From IMG/VR virus record IMGVR_UViG_3300047508_000109, positions 1 to 40,123 of that record: 40,123 nt of DNA; one strand, 5' to 3'. Source of the DNA: a virus. How positions within the stretch are numbered: the first letter of the stretch is position 1; every line of letters begins with the position of its first letter. This document shows positions 20,068 to 40,123 of the stretch, one piece after another. The notes under the pieces are model-generated. The model was not told where the DNA came from. It did no database searches and saw only the letters and a program-made list of their open reading frames with translations. The translations under genes and the position numbers were made by a program.

Positions 20068-20138
20068 GTCAGGTGTTTCCACGTGCGACGGTGGACCAAC
20101 GCGCTCACCGCAGAGCAAGTAACTCCGAGGCGGCTCAT
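20064..20138 (-). CDS. Possible 24-residue peptide coupling two genes
   Basis: ATG 20138 overlaps the stop of the membrane-protein gene (ATGA), and its own TGA overlaps the nuclease GTG at 20067 (GTGA). The product is short and basic (MSRLGVTCSAVSALVHRRT plus WKHLT). The double overlap fits the habit of the whole operon, so it may serve for translational coupling. No function can be read from the sequence. Confidence 0.4.
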   Translation of the reverse strand: MSRLGVTCSAVSALVHRRTWKHLT

Positions 20139-20353
20139 CGACCCAGCCTTTCGCGCGTCTTTAGTCGCGACGTCTTCGCGTCTGCATCGTTGCCCACCTC
20201 GAAGCCTTCGCTCCACGCCGCGTCGCGCTCGCGCTCGAGACGCTGCGCGCGCTCCGTTTCGACGACGACGCGTACGCCGCTGTACACGATGCCACCCACT
20301 AGTCCGACCACGCTGGCGACAGCGGCCAGCACCATGATGTCCTCGGCGGTCAT
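20135..20353 (-). CDS. Small membrane-anchored helical protein
   Basis: 72 residues from ATG 20353, overlapping the stop of the upstream Ala/Tyr-repeat gene (ATGA). Residues about 6-29 (IMVLAAVASVVGLVGGIVYSGV) form one membrane helix. A charged helix follows (ETERAQRLERERDAAWSEGFEVG). The layout, one helix plus a charged coil, is seen in spanin-like and many small phage membrane proteins; here it sits in the early block, away from the lysis-like cassette. Function unknown. Confidence 0.65.
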   Translation of the reverse strand: MTAEDIMVLAAVASVVGLVGGIVYSGVRVVVETERAQRLERERDAAWSEGFEVGNDADAKTSRLKTRERLGR

Positions 20354-20982
20354 GCAGTCACCGCACACATGCGGACGAGTAGGTCGCAAAACGATGCCCA
20401 TACTTCGCGCTTGGCGGAGGCGGAGGCGGCGGAGGCGGAGGCGGCGGCGTAGGCGGCGTAGGCGTAGGCGTTGGCGGCGTAGGCGGCGGCGTAGGCGGCG
20501 TAGGCGGCATCGGAGGCGGCGGCGTAGGCGGAGGCGGAGGCGGAGGCGGCGGCGTAGGCGGCGGCGTAGGCGGCGCGCGCTGTATCGATGTTCACAATCT
20601 CGGCGAGACTCTCCAGCTGCAACGCCAGGGCATCGCGTCCGCATGCGCGCAGAGCCCGTGGCGCTGCCCAGCGTACCGCCCAGTCTGCCGCCATGAACGC
20701 ACGACGCTGCTCCACCTGGCGCGTCGACCGCGTACCTAGTGCCATCACAACGGTGTCCTTGAGCAATTCGTTTCGCAGATCGACGGGCATGCTGTCGTTG
20801 CCACGGCGATACGCAGCGCCGATAACTGGACACACGCACCGCGGATGGTCGCTCCACGACTCACCTGCCAGTACGGACGCCCACTCCATTGCGCACCCTT
20901 CGCCACCAGCGGCATGATTGCCATGCGCGAGCGACGCGGAATTGAACCTTGCCAACACTTCAGCCTTGATTTCCACGGTCAT
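20350..20982 (-). CDS. GEGC-motif protein with Ala/Tyr-repeat tail
   Basis: 210 residues from ATG 20982, three bases after the upstream stop. Residues 1-130 form a folded domain with GGEGCAMEWASVLAGESWSDHP, CVCPVIGAAYRRGND and FMAADWAVRWAAPRAL; I have seen this pattern in uncharacterised proteins of phages and high-GC bacteria. Residues about 135-195 are a low-complexity tail of Ala, Tyr and Ser (AAYAAAYAAAS). The tail is coded almost only by GCC, TAC and TCC. Two other genes (22353-23015 and 25521-26096) carry the same kind of tail. The role is unknown. Confidence 0.75.
   Translation of the reverse strand: MTVEIKAEVLARFNSASLAHGNHAAGGEGCAMEWASVLAGESWSDHPRCVCPVIGAAYRRGNDSMPVDLRNELLKDTVVMALGTRSTRQVEQRRAFMAADWAVRWAAPRALRACGRDALALQLESLAEIVNIDTARAAYAAAYAAASASASAYAAASDAAYAAYAAAYAANAYAYAAYAAASASAASASAKREVWASFCDLLVRMCAVTA
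20405..20580 (-). repeat. GCC/TAC/TCC codon-repeat tract 1
   Basis: Imperfect short tandem repeats encode the Ala/Tyr/Ser tail of the gene at 20350-20982. Bases 20539-20575 are a 37-bp inverted, identical copy of 25859-25895 in the rightward unit. Confidence 0.9.
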
Positions 20983-20985
20983 GTT

Positions 20986-21216
20986 TCACTCTCCCTTTCG
21001 CATTGCAGTCGCCACGCACCGCGCGTAGGCCACGTCGTCGAACCATCCAGCGCTACGCGGGTACGTCCGCGGCTTGCGCAGGTACAGCGCCATCGCCGCA
21101 TCCAGCTCGCCTCGCGTAGCCGCACGCACGATTAGCGGCCGCTCGTTGCCCTTGCGGTCCCACCGCGTAGCCGGCCGCTGGCGCGCGAGCCATGCCGCTT
21201 CCTGGCGCGGCGTCAC
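20986..21216 (-). CDS. Small hypothetical protein
   Basis: 76 residues from GTG 21216, overlapping the upstream stop as GTGA. The sequence (TPRQEAAWLARQRPATRWDRKGNERPLIVRAATRGELDAAMALYLRKP...) has two helices with a basic strand between them and ends DDVAYARCVATAMRKGE. It could be a small DNA-associated protein. No family recognised. Confidence 0.6.
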   Translation of the reverse strand: MTPRQEAAWLARQRPATRWDRKGNERPLIVRAATRGELDAAMALYLRKPRTYPRSAGWFDDVAYARCVATAMRKGE

Positions 21217-21440
21217 TTCGGCACCCCATAGGCACCCAGGTCCACGCCGCTCGTGTGCGGCGCGAGTCGGTGAATCCGGTAGCAGTTGCGGCACATCAGG
21301 GCCTCCTTGACGCCGACCTGCTTCCAGCCGGCGCGCTTGCGTACTTCGACGTTCATGGCGTCCAGCATCGTCCACAGTTCGGCGGACGGCTCCGGGCAGG
21401 CGGCGCCGCAGTTGCGGCAAGGCCAGTCGACGTCGGTCAT
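21213..21440 (-). CDS. Small zinc-ribbon-like protein
   Basis: 75 residues from ATG 21440, overlapping the upstream stop as ATGA. Two CxxC pairs frame the protein (CRNCGAAC near residue 8 and MCRNCYRIH near residue 49), a probable zinc ribbon. A helix lies between them (LWTMLDAMNVEVRKRAG). Likely DNA- or protein-binding; specific role unknown. Confidence 0.65.
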   Translation of the reverse strand: MTDVDWPCRNCGAACPEPSAELWTMLDAMNVEVRKRAGWKQVGVKEALMCRNCYRIHRLAPHTSGVDLGAYGVPK

Positions 21441-21832
21441 GGCGTGGCCTTCAGGGTAAGGCCAACCTGCGCAAGCTGCCCCGTCGTTTCAGTGCCATTG
21501 AGACGGTCGAAGGCGGCCCTTACCTTGGCGAGTTGGCAGCAGACGCAGTTAGCCCAGCACTCGGTGCTATCAGGCTTCCACTGGTGGTTAGCCCGGACGT
21601 TCATCAGCGGAGCAATCACCTGCTCTAGTTCGGCGGCTCGCTGCATCAACTCCATGCGGTGAGTGTGCGTCACAGCGATGTCGCTCTGTGCTTGCCTTGC
21701 CACCTTGCGCGCACTGCGCAGATGCGACACTAGGTCGGGTATTCGCTTCACCAGCGGGATGATTACTTCGGGCGCCTGGAACCCTGCCGACTTCGCCAAT
21801 CGCTCCATCTCGTACAGCTCATCGTCGCTCAT
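21437..21832 (-). CDS. Helical hypothetical protein with CVCC motif
   Basis: 131 residues from ATG 21832, overlapping the loader gene stop as ATGA. It is mainly helical (SDDELYEMERLAKSAG, LVSHLRSARKVARQAQSDI, MELMQRAAELEQVIAPL), with a cysteine group (CWANCVCCQLAKV) near residue 95. Downstream of the loader-like gene, it may be a replication accessory. No known domain is recognised. Confidence 0.6.
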   Translation of the reverse strand: MSDDELYEMERLAKSAGFQAPEVIIPLVKRIPDLVSHLRSARKVARQAQSDIAVTHTHRMELMQRAAELEQVIAPLMNVRANHQWKPDSTECWANCVCCQLAKVRAAFDRLNGTETTGQLAQVGLTLKATP

Positions 21833-22353
21833 TTGCCACCCCCCAGCTTCAGCAGCTCGCCAGCACGCATCGGCCCAAGCCTCGCCGTGTGCTCCTCGAG
21901 TCGCCCCACGTTCTCGCGCTTCTCCAGCGTCTCACTCGACGCCAGGAAGAAGCCTCGCCACTGCGCGCGCACCGTGTTTATGTCCGATGACATCGTGTTG
22001 CAGAGTTCGCGCCATCCAATCGCGTCCACTGCGCGCGCAATCGCGGGGTGAGACCACTTCGGCTCCTTGTCTCGCCCCAGGTGGCGCATCGCATGGTCTA
22101 CCTCTGCCCACGCGAGGGCCGCATCGGGCAGTGCGACACGCGAGGCCGCGCAGCGCGTGCGGATGTCGCTGATGCTCGGCGGGTGAGGCGGACCGTCGGC
22201 CAGGTAAGCCTTGAGCGCCCCATACGCCTCGGGTAGCGCCAGGTCGGCCAGCATGTCGCTCCACACCGATAGCATCCCTGGCGACACCTTGAGACGCTCG
22301 GGGAACGCGTCGGAGATGGTCGCTAGCAGCGTCGTCGTCTCGTCCACGGTCAT
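21829..22353 (-). CDS. Helicase loader-like protein (G39P-type)
   Basis: 174 residues from ATG 22353, overlapping the upstream stop as TGATG; two in-frame GTG codons just before it are less likely. The N-terminal helical bundle (MTVDETTTLLATISDAFPERLKVSPGMLSVWSDMLADL...EAYGALKAYLADGPPHPPSISDIRTR) matches the layout of loaders and inhibitors of phage replicative helicases such as SPP1 G39P. The remainder is helical and ends in a charged tail. It lies two genes after the initiator, so it probably loads the host DnaB-type helicase. The family call is by pattern, not search. Confidence 0.72.
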   Translation of the reverse strand: MTVDETTTLLATISDAFPERLKVSPGMLSVWSDMLADLALPEAYGALKAYLADGPPHPPSISDIRTRCAASRVALPDAALAWAEVDHAMRHLGRDKEPKWSHPAIARAVDAIGWRELCNTMSSDINTVRAQWRGFFLASSETLEKRENVGRLEEHTARLGPMRAGELLKLGGGK

Positions 22354-23015
22354 CACCACGCCTCCGCGAGCAGTTCGAGCAGCTTCGCCGATTGGCGCTG
22401 AATGGACGCAGCCCGGGCGGCGTCGGCGGCGTCGGCGGCGGCGTAGACGGCGGAGGCGGCGTAGACGGCGGCGTAGACGGCGGCGGAGGCGGCGGCGGAG
22501 TAGGCAGCGTAGGCGGAGGCGTAGGCGGAGGCGGCGGCGGCGGCGGAGGCCTTATCACACGCATAGTTCGCCTCGGACCACTCCCTATAAGTCGGCTCGT
22601 CACCAGCGATGCGGCGGCACAGCAGGTCCACGACCTTGGCACTTTCGGGCGTCGCCCACTTCGCCAACTCCGTCTCCACAAGCCAGGCCAGAAACCGCCA
22701 TGCGACCATGGTCAAGTCGGCGCCCGGGCGAACGGCGTCGAGAAACCGCTCGGGCCAGGTCATCGCTTCGACAAGCGGCAACAGCTCGAACATCCTGTCT
22801 TCCAAGTGCGCGAGGATTAGCGGGATGCCCAGTTCCACCGGATACTGCGAATGGTCGTAGTTCTCCAGCGTGCAGCCAATGGCGCAGCCCTTGCCGTTCC
22901 CCCAGCCCGTGCCCTGGACGAGCCGGTCGGCGGCAGCATGCGCACGCACGCGCGCCAAGTAGTGGTCCTTCAACTCGGCGCAGTCGTGGAAAGCTCGGAG
23001 AACCTCGATGGTCAT
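22353..23015 (-). CDS. GKGC-motif protein with Ala/Tyr-repeat tail
   Basis: 220 residues from ATG 23015, overlapping the initiator stop as ATGA with AAAGGGG upstream. The folded part holds GTGWGNGKGCAIGCTLENYDHSQYP, VELGIPLILAHLEDRMFELLP, WPERFLDAV and VAWRFLAWLVETEL. It recalls uncharacterised phage proteins with a GxGCAxGC core. Residues about 155-205 are Ala/Ser/Tyr/Val-rich repeats (AYASAYAAYSAAASAAVYAAVYAAS). It is inserted between initiator and loader, a remarkable place for such a gene. The three repeat genes of this genome differ in their folded domains but share the tail. Confidence 0.75.
   Translation of the reverse strand: MTIEVLRAFHDCAELKDHYLARVRAHAAADRLVQGTGWGNGKGCAIGCTLENYDHSQYPVELGIPLILAHLEDRMFELLPLVEAMTWPERFLDAVRPGADLTMVAWRFLAWLVETELAKWATPESAKVVDLLCRRIAGDEPTYREWSEANYACDKASAAAAASAYASAYAAYSAAASAAVYAAVYAASAVYAAADAADAARAASIQRQSAKLLELLAEAW
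22415..22560 (-). repeat. GCC/TAC/TCC codon-repeat tract 2
   Basis: Imperfect tandem repeats encode the Ala-rich tail of the gene at 22353-23015. They include GTC and GAC variants, so the encoded tail has Val and Asp as well as Ala, Ser and Tyr. Confidence 0.85.
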
Positions 23016-23815
23016 TTCACACCCCTTTCGCGCATCTGCTGCGCCAATGCTCTCAGTTGGTCGCCGCTCATGGCGACGTAGCCTTTGCCGTTCAACGACG
23101 CCACCGACACCGCCGCCGCCGCCAGCTTGTCGAAGTGCTGCGCCAGCGTCCCGATGTCCGGCATCGATGCCGCCAGGAACGAGGGCGGCGATGTGAACAG
23201 TACGCCGATGCGGCGACACACCTCCTCCGCACCGTGCTGCTTCACCAGCGGCTTGAGAAGGCCGAACTGCTTGGGCCCCCACGTCGGCTTGATGCCACCG
23301 CTGCGCTCGACGTAGCGAGCCTGGAACTCGTCTGTGACTTGACGAAGTCCAAGGGTTCGCTCCACGGGCGGCGAAGCCGCTGATTGGACGTCTCGTTCGT
23401 CTCTTCTCGTCTCGTTCGTACGTGCATTGCGACGCTCGTTTTTCGCATCTGCGGTGGCTTCTGCGGCCGCACGCTTCTGCCACCCTACTTTCGCGTTGTT
23501 AGCGTTCGTTTCACTGGTCCGCTGATGCCTATGCTCGCCATCTACGTCGTATCTGACGAGCACGTAATCTTGCTGGCAGAGGTCGTGGATTCGGACCAGC
23601 CCGAGGTTCACCAGCACTCTGACTGACCTCTGCCGCATGCCTGCCGAGAAACTCCACTCGCGGTCACGCCATGCCACCGCACCCTTGAGAACCCCTCCAT
23701 TCTCCTGCTGCGCGCAGTAGGCGGCCAAGGCCAGCCAGTGAGCGCGAGGCGCCTCCGGCAAGGCCAGGAACTCTGCGCTGAGAACGAACGCCACGTCAAC
23801 GCGGAACCAGTCCAC
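23012..23815 (-). CDS. Replication initiator-like protein (O/DnaD-type organisation)
   Basis: 267 residues from GTG 23815, two bases after the stop of the ribbon-helix-helix gene. Residues 1-95 (DWFRVDVAFVLSAEFLALPEAPRAHWLALAAYCAQQENGG, then FSAGMRQRSVRVLVNLGLV) form a winged-helix-type domain as in phage replisome organisers. A long charged, disordered linker (about 105-155) follows. The C-terminal domain (VTDEFQARYVERSGGIKPTWGPKQFGLLKPLVKQHG...) resembles the helicase- or loader-binding part. It should bind the origin and recruit the loader encoded two genes downstream. An origin may lie inside this gene, as in lambda, but I see no clean iterons. Confidence 0.72.
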   Translation of the reverse strand: MDWFRVDVAFVLSAEFLALPEAPRAHWLALAAYCAQQENGGVLKGAVAWRDREWSFSAGMRQRSVRVLVNLGLVRIHDLCQQDYVLVRYDVDGEHRHQRTSETNANNAKVGWQKRAAAEATADAKNERRNARTNETRRDERDVQSAASPPVERTLGLRQVTDEFQARYVERSGGIKPTWGPKQFGLLKPLVKQHGAEEVCRRIGVLFTSPPSFLAASMPDIGTLAQHFDKLAAAAVSVASLNGKGYVAMSGDQLRALAQQMRERGVK

Positions 23816-23817
23816 GG

Positions 23818-23979
23818 CTAGCCTGCCTGCGGGCGCTTCGCCTTTAGACCGTCCTCGACCAGCATTGATGCCACGTAGGACAGGGAGCGCTGGTCGCGCT
23901 CGGCTGCCAGTTCGAGAAGTGCCCTCGCCTCTTGAGTGAGGCGGATGTAGACGATGGCAGAGCGATTCTTCTTTGTCAT
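23818..23979 (-). CDS. Ribbon-helix-helix regulator (CopG/Arc-like)
   Basis: 53 residues from ATG 23979. The short product (MTKKNRSAIVYIRLTQEARA, then LLELAAERDQRSLSYVASML) has the strand AIVYIRL, helix one, the turn with RSLSYVASML as helix two, and a short basic tail: the full ribbon-helix-helix pattern. Such proteins bind DNA as dimers through the strand. It has its own promoter in the 38-bp gap upstream and sits directly before the initiator gene, so it may control copy number or replication, and itself. Confidence 0.8.
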   Translation of the reverse strand: MTKKNRSAIVYIRLTQEARALLELAAERDQRSLSYVASMLVEDGLKAKRPQAG

Positions 23980-24017
23980 GAACTGTACCGTAGCGCATCT
24001 CAGTGGCGTGTCAAGAA
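23980..24017 (-). promoter_or_regulatory. Leftward promoter of the RHH-replication genes, apparently leaderless
   Basis: On the leftward strand a perfect TTGACA (24014-24009) is followed after 16 bases by TACGGT (23992-23987). The expected start of transcription, about seven bases further, falls at or next to the ATG at 23979, and there is no Shine-Dalgarno sequence. GGTAGTTC and GGTACAGTTC flank the promoter and could be half-sites for the RHH protein. The -35 is clear; the -10 is weak. Confidence 0.5.
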
Positions 24018-24239
24018 CTACCGCAACGCCTCGACACGTGCCGCGAGCGCCCGCATGGCCTCCACCTCGCTGGGCGTGCCGGTCATGACGGCCGCTTCGA
24101 GCAGCGCGGCGGCGAGTCGCATGCGGAGCATGTGGTGGTGCAGGCCGCGCAGGGCGAACGACACGGCGATGGCGTCGATGAGCTCGGCATTCAGCTCGAG
24201 CTGGGCGACGCGATGCGTGCGGCGCGTTGGCGTGGTCAT
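24018..24239 (-). CDS. Small helical hypothetical protein
   Basis: 73 residues from ATG 24239, overlapping the upstream stop as ATGA. The sequence (MTTPTRRTHRVAQLELNAELIDAIAVSFALRGLHHHMLRMRLAAALLEAAVMTG...) is one long set of helices rich in Ala and Leu, with a His cluster. It is the last gene before the RHH promoter. Function unknown. Confidence 0.6.
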   Translation of the reverse strand: MTTPTRRTHRVAQLELNAELIDAIAVSFALRGLHHHMLRMRLAAALLEAAVMTGTPSEVEAMRALAARVEALR

Positions 24240-24427
24240 GGCGCCTTCCCTCCTGTGCGGTGGTACCAGGCTAGAGCCTGCGCACGGTGACACTTCTTGC
24301 AGCGCTCGCTGACCCCACCCCTAATTGCGAACTTGGCGATATTGTCCTCGCGGTACGGGTGTCCGCATACGAACACCCCGCTCTCCTTGGGTCTCTGTCG
24401 TTTGCGCATGACGTATCGGCGCGTCAT
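24236..24427 (-). CDS. Small zinc-binding-like basic protein
   Basis: 63 residues from ATG 24427, overlapping the upstream stop as ATGA. A basic N-terminus (MTRRYVMRKRQRPKES) precedes a CGHPYREDN segment and a CKKCHRAQALAWYHR segment, together a plausible Cys/His zinc site of the HNH-like or treble-clef type without a visible catalytic His-Asn pair. Probably nucleic-acid binding. Function unknown. Confidence 0.6.
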   Translation of the reverse strand: MTRRYVMRKRQRPKESGVFVCGHPYREDNIAKFAIRGGVSERCKKCHRAQALAWYHRTGGKAP

Positions 24428-24597
24428 GGGCACACCCGCTGCCGTGGCAGGTCCACGCCCTGCGCGCGCAGTTTGCGTGCCCTCGTCTTGACGCTCGCGA
24501 CGTTGACGCCCAGGCGTCGCGCGAGCTGCTCCATGGTCTCGCAGAGGTCCCATGCGTGGCAGAACTCGGTGTCGGTGTGCTTCGGCTTCGGTCCCAT
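24424..24597 (-). CDS. Small helix-turn-helix protein
   Basis: 57 residues from ATG 24597, overlapping the upstream stop as TGATG. The middle (LCETMEQLARRLGVNVASVKTRARKLRAQGV) is a textbook helix-turn-helix: EQLARRLGV, the turn, and a recognition helix with VASVKTRARKL. It is probably a transcription regulator of the early genes or a DNA-binding accessory factor. It is the second HTH gene of the leftward unit, two genes after the XRE-type protein. Confidence 0.72.
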   Translation of the reverse strand: MGPKPKHTDTEFCHAWDLCETMEQLARRLGVNVASVKTRARKLRAQGVDLPRQRVCP

Positions 24598-24836
24598 CAC
24601 TTCACCTCCCCGGCACGCCGTGCGCGCGCCTTGTCACGTCGGTACTCCAGGCAGGCCACGCAGCACGTCCGCTGCGCCGCCGCAGGATCAGTGAAGCAGT
24701 AGTGGCACACGCCCACCTGCGTCGCCTTGGCGCGTAGCGCGCGAAGCCGCATGGCTCCTGGAGTCGCACGTCCAGCCCGCGCAGCTTCGCCGCGCGACGC
24801 GCGCATCCGCAGCGCTCCAGCCGTCGTGCTGGTCAT
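24597..24836 (-). CDS. Basic zinc-finger-like protein
   Basis: 79 residues from ATG 24836, overlapping the XRE gene stop as ATGA. The first 45 residues are Arg/Ala-rich (LRMRASRGEAARAGRA, GAMRLRALRAKATQ). A cysteine group follows (CHYCFTDPAAAQRTCCVACLEYRRDKARARR), a probable zinc site with a basic helix. The partial internal similarity of LRMRASRGEAARAG and MRLRALRAKATQVG suggests a duplicated segment. Likely nucleic-acid binding. Confidence 0.62.
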   Translation of the reverse strand: MTSTTAGALRMRASRGEAARAGRATPGAMRLRALRAKATQVGVCHYCFTDPAAAQRTCCVACLEYRRDKARARRAGEVK

Positions 24837-25021
24837 TCGGCCCACTCCTTCGGCGCGACCCCGCAAATCTCGTGCAGCTTGATAGCGCGCACGAGCCCGG
24901 GGCGCCCCCCGTTCTCCAGCAGACACCATTCCGAGCGGGTCATGCCTAGCTTCGCCGCAGCCGTGGCCTGGTCGTATCCCATCTTCGTCCTCCATCGTTT
25001 GAGTAGTCGCGGTCCGTTCAT
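24833..25021 (-). CDS. XRE-family (Cro/CI-like) regulator
   Basis: 62 residues from ATG 25021. The helix-turn-helix covers residues about 16-37 (YDQATAAAKLGMTRSEWCLLENG), the standard XRE pattern with Gln in the first and a polar recognition helix. It has no oligomerisation or protease domain, so it is like Cro or a minimal repressor. It is the first gene of the leftward unit and faces the rightward unit across a palindrome, which is the natural operator candidate. No Shine-Dalgarno lies before its ATG. Confidence 0.85.
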   Translation of the reverse strand: MNGPRLLKRWRTKMGYDQATAAAKLGMTRSEWCLLENGGRPGLVRAIKLHEICGVAPKEWAE

Positions 25022-25108
25022 GGGGTAACGCTAGCCGTGTTGTGCGATGTTTGCAACATCGAAAGAAAGTTGTGGACACGATTCGTGGGTGTGTTAAATC
25101 TAGAACCC
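25022..25108. promoter_or_regulatory. Divergent early promoter region
   Basis: This 87-bp gap separates the two transcription units. Leftward: TTGCAA (25056-25051), 17 bases, TAGCGT, then six bases to the ATG of the XRE gene. Rightward: TGGACA (about 25072-25077), 15 bases, TTAAAT, then nine or ten bases to ATG 25109. Neither start codon has a Shine-Dalgarno sequence, so both first mRNAs may be leaderless. The palindrome at 25045-25061 overlaps the leftward -35. Element matches are moderate; the layout is the stronger argument. Confidence 0.55.
25045..25061. promoter_or_regulatory. Operator-like palindrome
   Basis: CGATGTT-TGC-AACATCG is a perfect 7+7 inverted repeat with a 3-base centre, the size of a Cro/CI-type operator. 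It overlaps the leftward -35 element and lies about 10 bases upstream of the rightward -35 element. The likely ligand is the XRE protein encoded at 24833-25021. Confidence 0.7.
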
Positions 25109-25294
25109 ATGGAAAACAGCAAGTCGTTCATCGCGCGAATGTCGGACTACTTCGGACGTCTGCCCGGGCAGACCACTGGCGACTTCGGCGCCGAGCTGAA
25201 GAAGCTCACTCCCAAGGATAAGGAGGACCTCGTGGCGTGGTTCAACGCGGCCGGTCTGCCGACGTTGCCCGCGTCGCAGCCCATCCAGTCGTAA
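25109..25294 (+). CDS. Small conserved-type early protein
   Basis: 61 residues from ATG 25109, first gene of the rightward unit. The product (MENSKSFIARMSDYFGRLPG, then QTTGDFGAELKKLTPKDKED) ends in LVAWFNAAGLPTL. The LPGQT...EL-KLTPKDKEDLV pattern is familiar from small uncharacterised early phage proteins. An upstream in-frame extension to 25037 would pass through the promoter and is rejected. No Shine-Dalgarno; a leaderless mRNA is likely. Function unknown. Confidence 0.75.
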   Translation: MENSKSFIARMSDYFGRLPGQTTGDFGAELKKLTPKDKEDLVAWFNAAGLPTLPASQPIQS

Positions 25295-25302
25295 CCCGCG
25301 TG

Positions 25303-25324
25303 ATGCCCTGTGCGAGCAGGGCAT
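25303..25324 (+). promoter_or_regulatory. Stable hairpin between two early genes
   Basis: ATGCCCTG-TGCGAG-CAGGGCAT forms an uninterrupted 8-bp stem, extended by wobble pairs. It is not followed by a U-run but by GGAGG and the next start codon. It may attenuate, process or protect the message after the first gene. Confidence 0.5.
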
Positions 25325-25341
25325 TGCGGAGGTTATGAACC

Positions 25342-25524
25342 ATGACGACACGCATCCTGAGCCGCATTGAAGTCGCTGCGGACGCACCGAAGTTGACCGA
25401 CTACCACGACGCATCGGAGGACGTGACGGTGGAGCTACGCATCCCGGACGAGTGGTTCGCCGAAGTGAAGGCGGACGCGCGCGACGCGTCGGTGACGTGC
25501 CCGTTGAAGGGCGGTGTGAAGTGA
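25342..25524 (+). CDS. Small acidic early protein
   Basis: 60 residues from ATG 25342 with GGAGG 9 bases upstream. The sequence (MTTRILSRIEVAADAPKLTD, then YHDASEDVTVELRIPDEWFA) is acidic with alternating strands and a final EVKADARDASVTCPLKGG. Its stop overlaps the GTG of the Imm5-like gene (GTGA). It could be a partner of that protein. No family recognised. Confidence 0.65.
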   Translation: MTTRILSRIEVAADAPKLTDYHDASEDVTVELRIPDEWFAEVKADARDASVTCPLKGGVK

Positions 25525-26096
25525 GCGCGCATTGGAGCAACGCCCTCGTCAAGCTGCGCGCGTGCGGCGAAGCGGTAGAGTGGGCGAAGACACAGCCGAG
25601 CCTTGCCGCCGCGTGGGATGCGTGCGAGCGCGCAGACTGGCTGCTGTGGCTCGTCGGGCGCACCGACGCATCGGCGCCGTGGAGCGAGGAGCGCAAGCCG
25701 CTGGTGCGATGCGCTAATGCGTGCGCCGCCGAGGGGTTGAAGTACGCCAAGGACGGCAAGGCGAAGGACGTGGCAGAGGCGTGCATCTCCATCACGCAAG
25801 CATGGTGCGCGGGCGCAGCGAGTAGGGAGGACGTGCGCGAAGCGCGCGCCGCCGTCACCGCCGCCTACGCCGCCGCCTACGCCGCCGCCTCCGCCGCCTA
25901 CGCCGCCTCCGCCGCCGACGCCGCCGACGCCGCCGCCTACGCCGCCTACGCCGCCTCCTCCACTGCCGCGCGAGCCACCGCCTACGCCGCCTACGCCGCC
26001 GCCTACGCCTACGCTCGGACACGCATGCTCCGCGAATTGTGCGTCATCGTACGCGCGCATTTCCCTAACCCGCCCGCACTGGAGGTGACCCTATGA
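25521..26096 (+). CDS. Imm5-like protein with Ala/Tyr-repeat region
   Basis: 191 residues from GTG 25521, overlapping the upstream stop. Residues 1-110 carry the pattern I associate with the putative immunity protein Imm5 group: LRACGEAVEWAKTQPSLAAAW, ACERADWLLWLVGR, and helices with CANACAAEGL. Residues about 112-170 are Ala/Tyr/Ser/Asp repeats coded by GCC/TAC/TCC/GAC. A helix (RTRMLRELCVIVRAHFPNPP) closes the protein. Imm5 was named from its presence near polymorphic toxins; phage copies are common and uncharacterised. It is the third gene of the early rightward unit. A role in counteracting a toxin is possible but unproven. Confidence 0.75.
   Translation: MSAHWSNALVKLRACGEAVEWAKTQPSLAAAWDACERADWLLWLVGRTDASAPWSEERKPLVRCANACAAEGLKYAKDGKAKDVAEACISITQAWCAGAASREDVREARAAVTAAYAAAYAAASAAYAASAADAADAAAYAAYAASSTAARATAYAAYAAAYAYARTRMLRELCVIVRAHFPNPPALEVTL
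25859..26012 (+). repeat. GCC/TAC/TCC codon-repeat tract 3
   Basis: Imperfect tandem repeats encode the Ala/Tyr region of the Imm5-like gene. Bases 25859-25895 match 20539-20575 on the opposite strand over 37 bp without mismatch. Confidence 0.9.
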
Positions 26097-27632: not shown

Positions 27633-27841
27633 CCAGCTACTGCAAGTTCTGCCGTCGCGACTGGTGCGAGTGCGGCGAACTCTACGCGGAGTCGCTCCTG
27701 ATGGACGCCCAGGACAGGCAGTATTGGATGGCCGACGACGAGCCTACCGGAACATACGTGTGGCACGGCGACCGGCTGCAAGCCGCGCAGGACCGTGAGC
27801 AGGCGCTGAACGCACAGGGACGACATGGAGACGACGCATGA
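27629..27841 (+). CDS. Small zinc-ribbon-like protein before the annealing protein
   Basis: 70 residues from ATG 27629, overlapping the upstream stop as ATGA. The N-terminus has C5, C8, C13 and C15 ([11 protein letters not shown]), a likely zinc site. The remainder is acidic and Gln-rich ([28 protein letters not shown]). It is translationally coupled to the Bet-like gene (ATGA). Function unknown. Confidence 0.65.
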
Positions 27842-28818
27842 GCACCGCAATCGCAACCATCGGCGACTCAGCCGACTTCACACGCGAGCAGGTCGACCTG
27901 ATCAAGACACAGGTCATGTTCGGCGCCACGGATGGCGAGCTTCAGCTTTTCGTCGCGACGTGCAAGCGTCTGCGGCTTGACCCGTTCGGCCGCCAAATCT
28001 ACGCGGTCAAGCGGTGGTCTCGTGAGCGTGGCGAGAAGTGGGAGACGCAGGTGAGCATCGATGGGTTCCGCCTCGTGGCGAGCCGCTCTGGCGACTACCA
28101 GGGGCAGACGGCGCCGCAGTGGTGCGGACCCGACATGCACTGGCGGGACGTGTGGCTGGAGACGACGCCGCCCGCGGCCGCGCGCATCGGTGTGTGGCGC
28201 GCCTCGTTCCGTGAGCCGGCGTGGGGCATCGCGCGCTATGCCTCGTACGTCCAGCGCACCAAGGAGGGCGGCGCCAACCGCATGTGGCAGACGATGCCTG
28301 ACGTGATGCTGGCAAAGTGCGCCGAGGCGCTAGCGTTGCGGAAGGCGTTCCCCAACGACCTATCCGGGGTCTACACGAGCGACGAGATGGCACACGTCGA
28401 TGCCGAGGATGCTCCGGTGAAACCGCCTGCGTTCTTCGGCGTGGACCGCACAACCAACTCCCCGATGGGAGATGCGCCGCCGACCGTCCTCGAGGCGCAG
28501 CTGGAGAAGTCCATTGACGTGGCGAAGGCCAAGAAGGCGCCGCTGGATGCCGACTTCGAGGCCATGAACAAGCGCCTGCTCGCCGTTCGGGGCTATGGCG
28601 GCGACGAGAACAAGGAGCGCCGCAAGGGCTGGATGGCCGACGCGATGCGATACGTGGGTGCGCCCGGCAAGCTCTACGTGGCGTTCACGCGACTGGACGA
28701 GGCGTCCAAAGCCGACGTCTTCGCGCAGCTGGCGAAGCTGGAAGAGTCGGCGAAGGACGACGTACCTGCGTTCGCTGCGCCCGTGAAGGAGCGCGAGCCG
28801 GGGGAAGACGATGAGTAG
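27838..28818 (+). CDS. bet: Bet/RecT-type single-strand annealing protein
   Basis: 326 residues from ATG 27838. Residues 19-60 ([42 protein letters not shown]) and [18 protein letters not shown] match the conserved core of the lambda Bet branch of RecT proteins; [25 protein letters not shown] closes that domain. The C-terminus (from about 205) is a linker and a helical region ending in an acidic tail. It anneals complementary single strands in phage recombination and replication. No partner exonuclease is encoded next to it; the VRR-NUC gene at 19.7 kb is the only nuclease candidate apart from the HNH protein. Confidence 0.93.
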
Positions 28819-30920: not shown

Positions 30921-33404
30921 CTAGGTCCCAATTCTTGTCCACTTGCTCGTCGCGGCATTGTAGCGAAGCGTCAAGGAAGCACCAGCGGCGACCGTGTAGA
31001 CGTCCTGGATGTTGCCTGCGGTGGTGGTCGCCCATCCGCTAGGAGCGTACAGCGTGATGGTGGACCCGTTGTAGGCGAGCTGGGACGCTACCGTGGCCGA
31101 GACGTTGATGGTCGCGATGGCGGTCGTCCCGGTGACGCTGGCCGTGTCGTAGTCGGGGTTCCACGTGATGGTCGTTCCGCTAGCGATGTCCGGCCCCACA
31201 TCGTCACTCATCCGCAGATTCTGCGCGGTGGCTACGGTGTGGTACATGCCGTTCCACTTGTTGCCCCGGCCCTTGATTGCGCCAGCTGGCACAGACGTCG
31301 AGTAGTAGATGGCCGACCCCACCGATGCGTGCGTGGCGTCGGCCGACAGAATGTCGCAATCCTGAAAGTACACGATGTCGGTGGATGTCTTGCCGTTGAA
31401 CTGGACCACGCCATCGCTGGACCCAGACCTACCACGCCAGCGCACGCGCGAGAAGCGTCCGCCCATGCAGTTACCGCCGATTTGGGCCAGGCGCGAGATG
31501 CTGCCCGCAAGGAGCGCCTGCGTCCAGTTCACGTCGCTGATTTCGAACCAACCGCCGCCACTGCCATCCACCGCTACAAGCAGGTAACCGCTAGCGCCAG
31601 CGAGCGGAACGCTGCTGGCGCTCTGCGACGAGTCGAGTGCGATGACCTCGATGCCGCGTGCGGATAGGTGGATTGGATGCGACAGGTTGAACACCGCGCC
31701 GAACCCGCCGCTCGACAGCGAGTTAACCAGGTTGACGATTAGCCCGTCCACGACGAGATGCGTTCCGTACTGCACATCGTCGTAGGACTGGAAGGTGTAG
31801 CCGCCGATGATATTTGGCTTGTGGGTGCACCCGACTGCGGTCGTGGACGAGCGCACGTTGACCGCGACGGGGCATTCGAAGTTGCAGCCCACCATGCGAG
31901 TCATCCCTCGTTCGGACGTGAGGATGCCGACGAACCCATATGCGCTCTTGAATGTGCAGTCAGTGAAGAGACTTCGGGACACAACCGACGACGTCCCCCA
32001 AACCTGGATGCCGAACTTGGAGTTCGGCCAGTTCTCCATGATGACGTTATCGCAAACCAGGTCGACGCCCGGGTTGATGTAGCAAATGTGAGAGCCGCCG
32101 ATGGTCGATGATGTGAACCCGCCCACGCAATCGGTGTCGTGAAGCCAGCTGTCCTTGATGAGCAGCGCTCGGCCGTTCCAAGGGACGTCGGTGGACATGA
32201 AGACGGCGTGAAATCCGCCCTGGAGGTCGCAATTGTCAATCTTGACGCGCAGTACCGGCTTGCCACCGTTGACGCCACCGTTGATTCCAATGGGACCGCC
32301 GAATCCGTGCATCTTGCAGTCGCGAAACAGCACGTCCTGCGTGGCGGTCACCGATGCCGTGATTGCCGGGTTGTAGTTGTACATCGAGCTCACCGCCTCG
32401 GTGGCAGCATTGCCCGTCGTGCCCCAGTATTCGCCGATGAGCTCGAGGCCCGACATCGTGAGGTTGTAGTTCGCCGTGAGCGCATCGCTCGCCTTGGGGT
32501 TGTGGCTGATGACCGAGCACGTGTACCCGGCGAACAGGTAGTCGTTCGTGGTGAGTCCGGTGATTTGCGTGGCATCGGTCACCGTGATGGTGTTGGCGCC
32601 GCTGTTGACCGCTGTGACGCCGATTGTGAACGCACCATTCGCTCGCGGCGACGAGCCGTCGATGTTTGGCGACGCCTTGACGATGACGGTGTTCGGAGCC
32701 CACTTCGCTGCGTCACCAGCGGTCACGAGCGTAATCACGTTGCCGGAAATTGATGCGACGCGGCCGCGCTGAACGCGCGTGCTCGTCATGCGGATGATTG
32801 TCTTGCCGATGCCATCACCGAAGATGATGAGGTTGGGAAAGTCGACGATGCCGCAACCTGCGGTCGTGGTGTTGTCGTGCGTGGCGACCAAATCGTAGAT
32901 GAGGCCACCATTGCTCGGCAGGTAGATGGGCTTCTTCGTGGTGGCTGCCGCCTGTAGCAGCGTGTTCCACGCTGCCAGGTTGTCTGTCCCGATGGTGCCC
33001 GCCGTACCATCGGCGACCATGTTGTAGGGTACCTTGGTGGCATCCAGGCAATTCAGGCCCAGGCCAGCAGCGCCCGCTGCGCCGTTGGTGCCGTTGGTCC
33101 CATTGGTCCCGTTCGCACCGTTGTTGCCGGCTGGTCCCTGCGGACCCGTGATGCCTTGTGGTCCGGGTGGTCCCTGCGTTCCCGCGGGACCTACGGAGCC
33201 ATCCGTGCCGGAGCCATCAAGACCTCGCGGACCCTGCGCGCCAGTCGGACCCTGCGCGCCAGTCGGACCCTGGATGCCCTGCGCGCCGGGTGGACCGACC
33301 GCTCCGGGGGCGCCAGTCGGACCCTGCGGCCCGGCCGGACCCTGCTCCAGTGGGACCGAGGGGACAGTGACCGAGCCCGGGCGTAGTGGCGCGCTGTGAG
33401 TCAT
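30921..33404 (-). CDS. Tailspike with collagen-like stalk and pectate-lyase fold
   Basis: 827 residues from ATG 33404. Residues about 22-110 are Gly-X-Y repeats ([13 protein letters not shown]..., then GTNGTNGTNG), a trimerising collagen-like stalk. From about 118 the [17 protein letters not shown]...[27 protein letters not shown] segment opens a right-handed beta-helix typical of the pectate-lyase-3 superfamily. The region up to about 740 continues with short coils ([31 protein letters not shown]). The C-terminus ([15 protein letters not shown]...[18 protein letters not shown]) is a beta-sandwich tip. It should bind and possibly depolymerise host surface polysaccharide. Confidence 0.9.
33050..33340 (-). 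repeat. Collagen-like Gly-X-Y coding repeats
   Basis: Short tandem repeats encode the stalk of the tailspike. The 18-bp unit GGACCCTGCGCGCCAGTC occurs twice in a row (33229-33264) and degenerate copies surround it. Such tracts change length easily. Confidence 0.85.
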
Positions 33405-39896: not shown

Positions 39897-40123
39897 TACT
39901 GCGCTCCCCCGAGGCTGTTGAACTTGCGCGGCGCAGGCCCGCTGCCTGCTGCCTTGGGCGTGGCGCGAAGCTGCGGGTCGTAGACAAGCGGCTTTCCGGT
40001 CCCGTCATGGCCGACGATTTGAAGGCCCTTTTTGACGCTCCAGCTACCGTCCTTGCCCTGGACGAAGTCACTTGGCTGCGAGGGGCGCACGCCCTTGTCG
40101 CTCGCGTTGGCCGTCGACTCGAT
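39896..40123 (-). CDS. Internal virion-type protein, C-terminal part (continues at base 970 side)
   Basis: This is the 3' end of the gene that starts at 970 and crosses the contig join. Bases 39997-40123 duplicate 1-127, and the frame is the same in both copies. The part shown contains RPSQPSDFVQGKDGSWSVKKG and GHDGTGKPLVYDPQLRA and ends in FNSLGGAQ followed by TAG at 39896. A GTG at 40090 in this frame is internal, not the start. Confidence 0.9.
   Translation of the reverse strand: MESTANASDKGVRPSQPSDFVQGKDGSWSVKKGLQIVGHDGTGKPLVYDPQLRATPKAAGSGPAPRKFNSLGGAQ
39997..40123. repeat. Direct repeat joining the contig ends (copy 2)
   Basis: Identical to bases 1-127. One of the two copies should be removed when the genome is closed. 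Confidence 0.95.

Follow-up and report, generated by a model that had tools for sequence, protein, structure and literature searches.

The stretch of viral DNA analysed here, hereafter the window, is the complete 40,123-bp virus record IMGVR_UViG_3300047508_000109. Its first 127 bp recur identically and in direct orientation at its end (positions 1-127 and 39997-40123), consistent with a complete genome of a circularly assembled or terminally redundant phage. A first-pass annotation, made from the DNA letters alone, had pointed to three genes (genes 1, 2 and 3, Table 1) whose products carry low-complexity tails of Ala with Tyr and Ser, and all three proved to be real open reading frames (ORFs) with the positions and tails described. 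Their folded domains had been called unrelated, in agreement with a profile-profile comparison of the three bodies, which gave probabilities of no more than 1.4%. In each gene the Ala-rich tail is followed by a short C-terminal segment, and is thus referred to below as the arm, lying between the body and the C-terminal cap.

Three families with a common arm

Families 1, 2 and 3 were defined in this analysis by body motif, body profile, arm and cap. Motif scans of viral contigs recovered at least 119 stretches for each of the three genes with a shared layout: in all three families, relatives have the Ala-rich part after the body and ahead of a conserved short segment at the C-terminus. The arm was present in 81 of 89, 66 of 88 and 110 of 117 genes scoring above threshold in the three families, and a few members have short arms. 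Gene 1 matched the family 1 body profile and carries the arm and an LQxSAxxLxxRM-type cap, the LxxRM end of which is seen in KREVWASFCDLLVRMCAVTA; gene 2 likewise matched the family 2 body profile and has the arm and a KLLELL-type cap (SIQRQSAKLLELLAEAW). The family 2 motif GKGCAxGCT was found in 11 contigs from about 85,000 bacterial and archaeal species genomes versus at least 119 viral stretches, and family 2 therefore looks mainly viral. Each gene is a member of a separate, mostly viral family.

Table 1. Positions of the three genes, their arms and caps, the repeated tract and neighbouring genes in the window
Feature	Position	Strand	Description
Gene 1	20350..20982	-	210 aa; family 1 body (motif WSDHPxCxxPV), arm, cap; family 1 profile E 1.3e-44
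Gene 1 arm	20413..20580	-	56 residues, begins ARAAYAAAYAAASAS; GCC/TAC/TCC nearly throughout
Gene 1 C-terminal cap	20353..20412	-	KREVWASFCDLLVRMCAVTA; like family 1 caps
37-bp tract, gene 1 arm copy	20539..20575	-	codon phase same as gene 3 copy
Helicase-loader-like gene	21829..22359	-	context gene
Gene 2	22353..23015	-	220 aa; family 2 body (motif GKGCAxGCT); family 2 profile E 1e-52
Gene 2 arm	22407..22550	-	48 residues; AlphaFold (AF2) helices 143-176, 181-218
Gene 2 C-terminal cap	22356..22406	-	SIQRQSAKLLELLAEAW
Replication-initiation-like ORF	23012..23998	-	phrog_2447, E 4e-6; true start probably further in
Ribbon-helix-helix-like small regulator	23818..23979	-	weak, under Pfam cut-off
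XRE-type helix-turn-helix regulator	24833..25021	-	HTH_3, E 1e-6
Gene 3	25521..26096	+	191 aa, GTG start at 25521; family 3 = Imm5_like-related body (motif CERxDWxxW); family 3 profile E 4e-27
Gene 3 arm	25842..26015	+	58 residues; AF2 helices 102-140, 145-180
37-bp tract, gene 3 arm copy	25859..25895	+	codon phase same as gene 1 copy
Gene 3 C-terminal cap	26016..26093	+	RTRMLRELCVIVRAHFPNPPALEVTL; like family 3 caps
RecT-family annealing protein	27838..28818	+	RecT, E 2e-31

Searches of Pfam, PHROGs and NCBIfam with the three window proteins returned nothing informative, PADLOC found no match, and no solved structure was matched by sequence for genes 2 and 3. Families 1 and 2 showed no convincing match to any described family. 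Profile matches obtained using A1 and A2 to ribosomal, coiled or designed proteins look like low-complexity matches and were set aside, and where family 2 members matched ribosomal proteins, tail fibres or tape measures in Pfam and PHROGs, the matches were attributed to the repeats or to fused neighbouring sequence.

Family 3 could be placed more closely. Thirteen of 29 relatives matched Imm5_like (PF21805) at E up to 0.1 (best E 1.3e-12), and 3 of 29 matched Imm5 (PF14423). The match on L125 reached 26.3 bits, the gathering score for Imm5_like being 25 bits, and covered residues 52-176, the second half of the protein including arm and cap. Gene 3 itself did not match Imm5_like at E cut-offs of 0.1 or 1, and it is therefore regarded as a relative of Imm5_like, not a member. 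The all-alpha fold of Imm5_like was also seen in the AF2 model of gene 3, which has eight helices. Imm5 is a predicted, mostly alpha immunity protein of polymorphic toxin systems, acting against DYW-type deaminase and CdiAC toxins, and is also a polyimmunity protein domain (PMC3482391). Family 3 resembles these proteins in that its relatives match both models, but gene 3 goes unmatched and a hypervariable, codon-uniform arm is undescribed in the papers found. The initial statement that no function is described for such a trio thus holds for genes 1 and 2, whereas gene 3 lies near the Imm5_like putative immunity proteins. L141 (as well as L168, L170 and L236) contains seven tandem copies of the family 3 motif with similar bodies and caps and very different arms, and this seven-copy array resembles a polyimmunity-type array.

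Structure models were made for two of the three proteins. AlphaFold gave a predicted local distance difference test score (pLDDT) of 86 for gene 3 and 82 for gene 2, each with a predicted template modelling score (pTM) of 0.78. Both models contain two long helices that are interrupted midway along the arm, and a C-terminal helix of high confidence, so that in these two proteins the arm is most likely an antiparallel helical hairpin returning the C-terminal helix to the body. Non-Ala residues of the arms are mostly spaced by 3-4 positions, with a strict period of 4 in family 1. The tails had alternatively been proposed to serve a common purpose such as self-assembly. That several unrelated families carry the same arm in a matching position bears out the common element in this proposal; the purpose itself does not follow. 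Ala-rich helices can form tight coiled coils, in line with arms that polymerise the proteins into fibres or a scaffold, but we consider this improbable, given that the models read as a hairpin returning a conserved cap to its own body and that such highly variable arm sequences would need to keep pairing. Polyalanine coiled coils are the topic of PMC4049302.

Codon uniformity and variation of the arms

The tails had been described as coded almost entirely by GCC, TAC and TCC, and the counts agree: 94 of the 99 Ala codons in the tails are GCC, versus 28% in the rest of the genome, Ser is TCC in 17 of 17 versus 14%, and every tail Tyr codon is TAC. The same uniformity was found in relatives. A single codon accounts for a median of 98% of arm Ala codons in family 2 and 100% in family 3, compared with 33-36% for that codon in the bodies of the same genes, and family 1 arms are looser (median 61%). 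In families 2 and 3, arrays of GCC or GCT mostly carry Tyr and Asp, and arrays of GCG or GCA mostly Ser, Trp, Arg and Glu, although exceptions exist. Since the residue type follows the third base, a DNA process would appear to shape the arm, with the exact side chains being flexible. Because the arm codons are so uniform, long false ORFs, poly-Arg or Gly-rich, run antisense to the arms (20073-20696 (+), 22211-23383 (+) and 25401-26060 (-)). Such false ORFs, which arm arrays yield on both strands, are a trap for gene callers and annotators.

Comparison of close relatives provided good support for arms that change in length and sequence much faster than bodies that are 99-100% identical. The bodies of L351 and L293 are identical, as are their flanks over 1.5 kb on each side, yet their arms differ by 111 nt; arm changes on a near-constant body also occur among L146/L199 and L181/L218/L227, and the two copies in L117 are identical over 450 nt of body but differ in their arms. 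In some pairs the changes fall at codon positions 1 and 2 with position 3 fixed. As assembly errors in metagenomes had to be guarded against, cultured phages were examined as well. Between Mycobacterium phages Halley and Ejimix there are 3 base differences and a single in-frame arm gap of 42 nt, while Courthouse and Halley have 2 mismatches in the body, several in-frame gaps in the arm and an identical cap.

Variation at codon positions 1 and 2 with position 3 fixed superficially resembles the NNC variation of diversity-generating retroelements; the changes here, however, include large in-frame gaps, which fit shuffled codon units. No reverse transcriptase (PF00078) match was found in the genome, no search having been aimed at a template repeat, and a retroelement origin was rejected because of the missing reverse transcriptase. 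Coding tandem repeats (in-frame microsatellites) in surface or tail proteins gain and lose units at constant frame, as the arms appear to do. The arms differ from these in lying in replication-region genes and on bodies of several unrelated kinds, in having a third base that hardly varies, and in being followed by a conserved cap. We infer in-frame slippage or unequal recombination as the source of array change, since whole-codon shifts of a codon-uniform array would keep both base pairing and frame.

Two scans for arm DNA alone gave 210 new loci, at which the arm frames belonged to family 3 (87), family 1 (42), family 2 (12) or bodies outside the profiles (30). Some of these 30 are remote members of the three families or have a family 3-like segment, including fusions with DUF7666 (PF24703), and for the CQDRFDNW, LDHQAEMW and L407/L455 body types no link to the three families was seen. 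The arm is thus a recurrent device across phage protein families and no peculiarity of this phage. In L542, L523, L543 and L467 an N-terminal DUF7666-type domain is apparently fused to a helical segment like that of family 3, with arm and cap; DUF7666 itself had no match in any of the three window genes. Proteins of Mycobacterium Omegavirus phages (L605-L610 and L377), which are hypervariable in cultured isolates, appear to combine an N-terminus of family 1 with a second half, arm included, that resembles family 2. Family 1 and family 3 genes occur together in the record G034; apart from this record, whole-record full-length alignment searches were not used for co-occurrence, as they mostly matched the arm of a record's own gene. 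No description of such arms was found in the literature searched, which was open-access only.

These observations also bear on whether the arms do anything at all. They might be neutral or mildly harmful repeat growth without function, tolerated because both ends are anchored at the hairpin turn, as suggested by the single-codon arrays, the fast length change, the members with short arms and, in families 2 and 3, the way the third base tracks residue chemistry. Retention of the arms across distant relatives in all three families, their recurrence on further unrelated bodies and the 3-4 spacing of non-Ala residues speak against it, leaving neutral growth a real though lesser possibility.

The shared 37-bp tract and the surrounding genes

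The two 37-bp tracts in the arms of genes 1 and 3 (Table 1) are exact reverse complements of each other, as first noted, and they lie in a 169-nt imperfect inverted repeat with 76% complementarity. When the tail codons were shuffled, a shared tract of at least 36 bp arose in 19 of 1000 trials (1.9%), rising to 81 of 1000 (8.1%) when blocks were shuffled so as to preserve the Ala runs. When GCC-type tails were paired across both families and viruses, 50 of 690 pairs share at least 36 bp, with a maximum of 58. The gene 3 tail has 37 bp in common with two unrelated viruses (L066 and L016) and the gene 1 tail 36 bp with L175 and L144. Against a background matched for family and third base, 2 of 112 comparisons reach 37 bp. 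The 37-mer, found in one of three pairs examined, is thus at the edge of expectation and not clearly more than chance, and the shared tract is weak evidence for a DNA switch. More generally, tracts of 30-50 bp common to such arrays are weak evidence of recombination.

It had been proposed that annealing at these tracts inverts the intervening 5.3 kb with the initiator and regulators. The exact inverted identity flanking this segment, within the longer inverted repeat, would suit such a switch, and the Bet-type annealing protein on which the proposal relied was identified as a RecT-family gene. The breakpoints lie within genes 1 and 3 and the tracts have the same codon phase in both, so inversion would leave the products open and yield in-frame chimeras of body and C-terminus, swapping caps between unrelated proteins. 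Yet when cap profiles trained on half of the relatives were scored on the held-out half, 162 of 163 confidently scored genes had the cap expected for their family (the scores of 18 others were too weak to classify). Equally long tracts are also shared between unrelated viruses, and the regulators and divergent promoters would move along with most of the genes they face. No match to a serine recombinase (PF00239) or a tyrosine recombinase/integrase (PF00589) was found in the genome, and thus no site-specific invertase of either kind. The inversion switch was accordingly left unsupported, and we regard it as highly improbable.

Spread of the tails by gene conversion had been offered as an alternative. 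The strongest case that we saw is L103, in which the family 1 and family 2 arms (frames at +8887 and +7147) share 52 bp with a rare SVAS motif, a length reached in none of 77 matched comparisons, making occasional exchange between arms of different genes plausible. In the window, the 37-bp match of genes 1 and 3 against its background and the prevalence of C at the third codon position in all three arms point the same way. Genes 1 and 2, however, share just 17 bp, less than the background median, two different arm types coexist on the L404 contig, and L135 falls within background (9.8%). That segments exchanged between genes of one genome keep their arms alike is hence possible, if on balance doubtful, and for the window the case for gene conversion is weak.

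The ends of gene 2 overlap the initiator-like ORF upstream and the helicase-loader-like ORF downstream by a few bases each, and gene 3 overlaps neighbouring ORFs on both sides, suggesting possible translational coupling of both genes with their neighbours. We infer early expression of the three genes because they sit in tightly packed runs of replication and recombination genes in this phage. Related settings are seen in Xanthomonas phage phiXaf18, where a virulence-associated E gene precedes a family 2 gene, and in virus vir526, where a DnaB-like helicase gene precedes a family 3 gene. A family 2 gene is also present in Xanthomonas phages XapPhi1, XapPhi6 and XapPhi4 (L601, L603 and L604), unannotated in the deposited records, unlike in XapPhi5; in XapPhi6 and XapPhi4 it reads open. 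Searching through the initiator and RecT found no close relatives of the window. Elsewhere in the genome, a large protein that is probably a tail fibre (30921-33404, minus strand) has a collagen-like GxxGxx repeat near its N-terminus, with the repeats at 33203-33344.

Possible role of the arms

The reading that we favour, at a probability of about 0.55, is that three separate phage accessory families share an Ala-rich arm, set in after the body and ahead of a conserved short helix at the C-terminus, which would fold as a hairpin, bring that helix back to the body and be diversified by slippage or recombination. The most speculative step is that the arm would offer an adjustable contact surface in phage-host conflict, for example in immunity to host toxins or in counter-defence. 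It is suggested by the kinship of family 3 with Imm5_like, and a counter-defence or immunity role of the arm proteins is a guess.

Several observations weigh against this reading. Neutral repeat growth would account for most of these data as well, and gene 3 itself falls outside Imm5_like. Model confidence drops to about 54-58 at the arm tips, and Foldseek found no significant structural resemblance between the gene 2 and gene 3 models and the PDB. Some arm length differences among metagenome contigs could be assembly errors. The arms, too, are identical in 67 of the 80 contig pairs whose bodies share at least 99% identity, many of these pairs being probably from the same virus, and no rate of change is therefore claimed. 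Lastly, one annotated member, in phage Bobby, adjoins an integrase and not replication genes.

A tentative and rather unlikely extension of the favoured reading is that the arm is an undescribed module, a codon-uniform, hypervariable Ala-rich hairpin set into the same position of several unrelated early proteins, and that it would be a contact surface quickly re-tuned against host defences or toxins, through in-frame slippage and without a dedicated enzyme. If the arm is functional and fast-evolving, phages would be able to vary a protein surface without a retroelement or an invertase, the near-uniform codons holding every shift in frame and well paired. The arm would also tie together several families currently listed as hypothetical proteins. 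Cultured mycobacteriophages already have differing arms, so the idea is open to testing in them.

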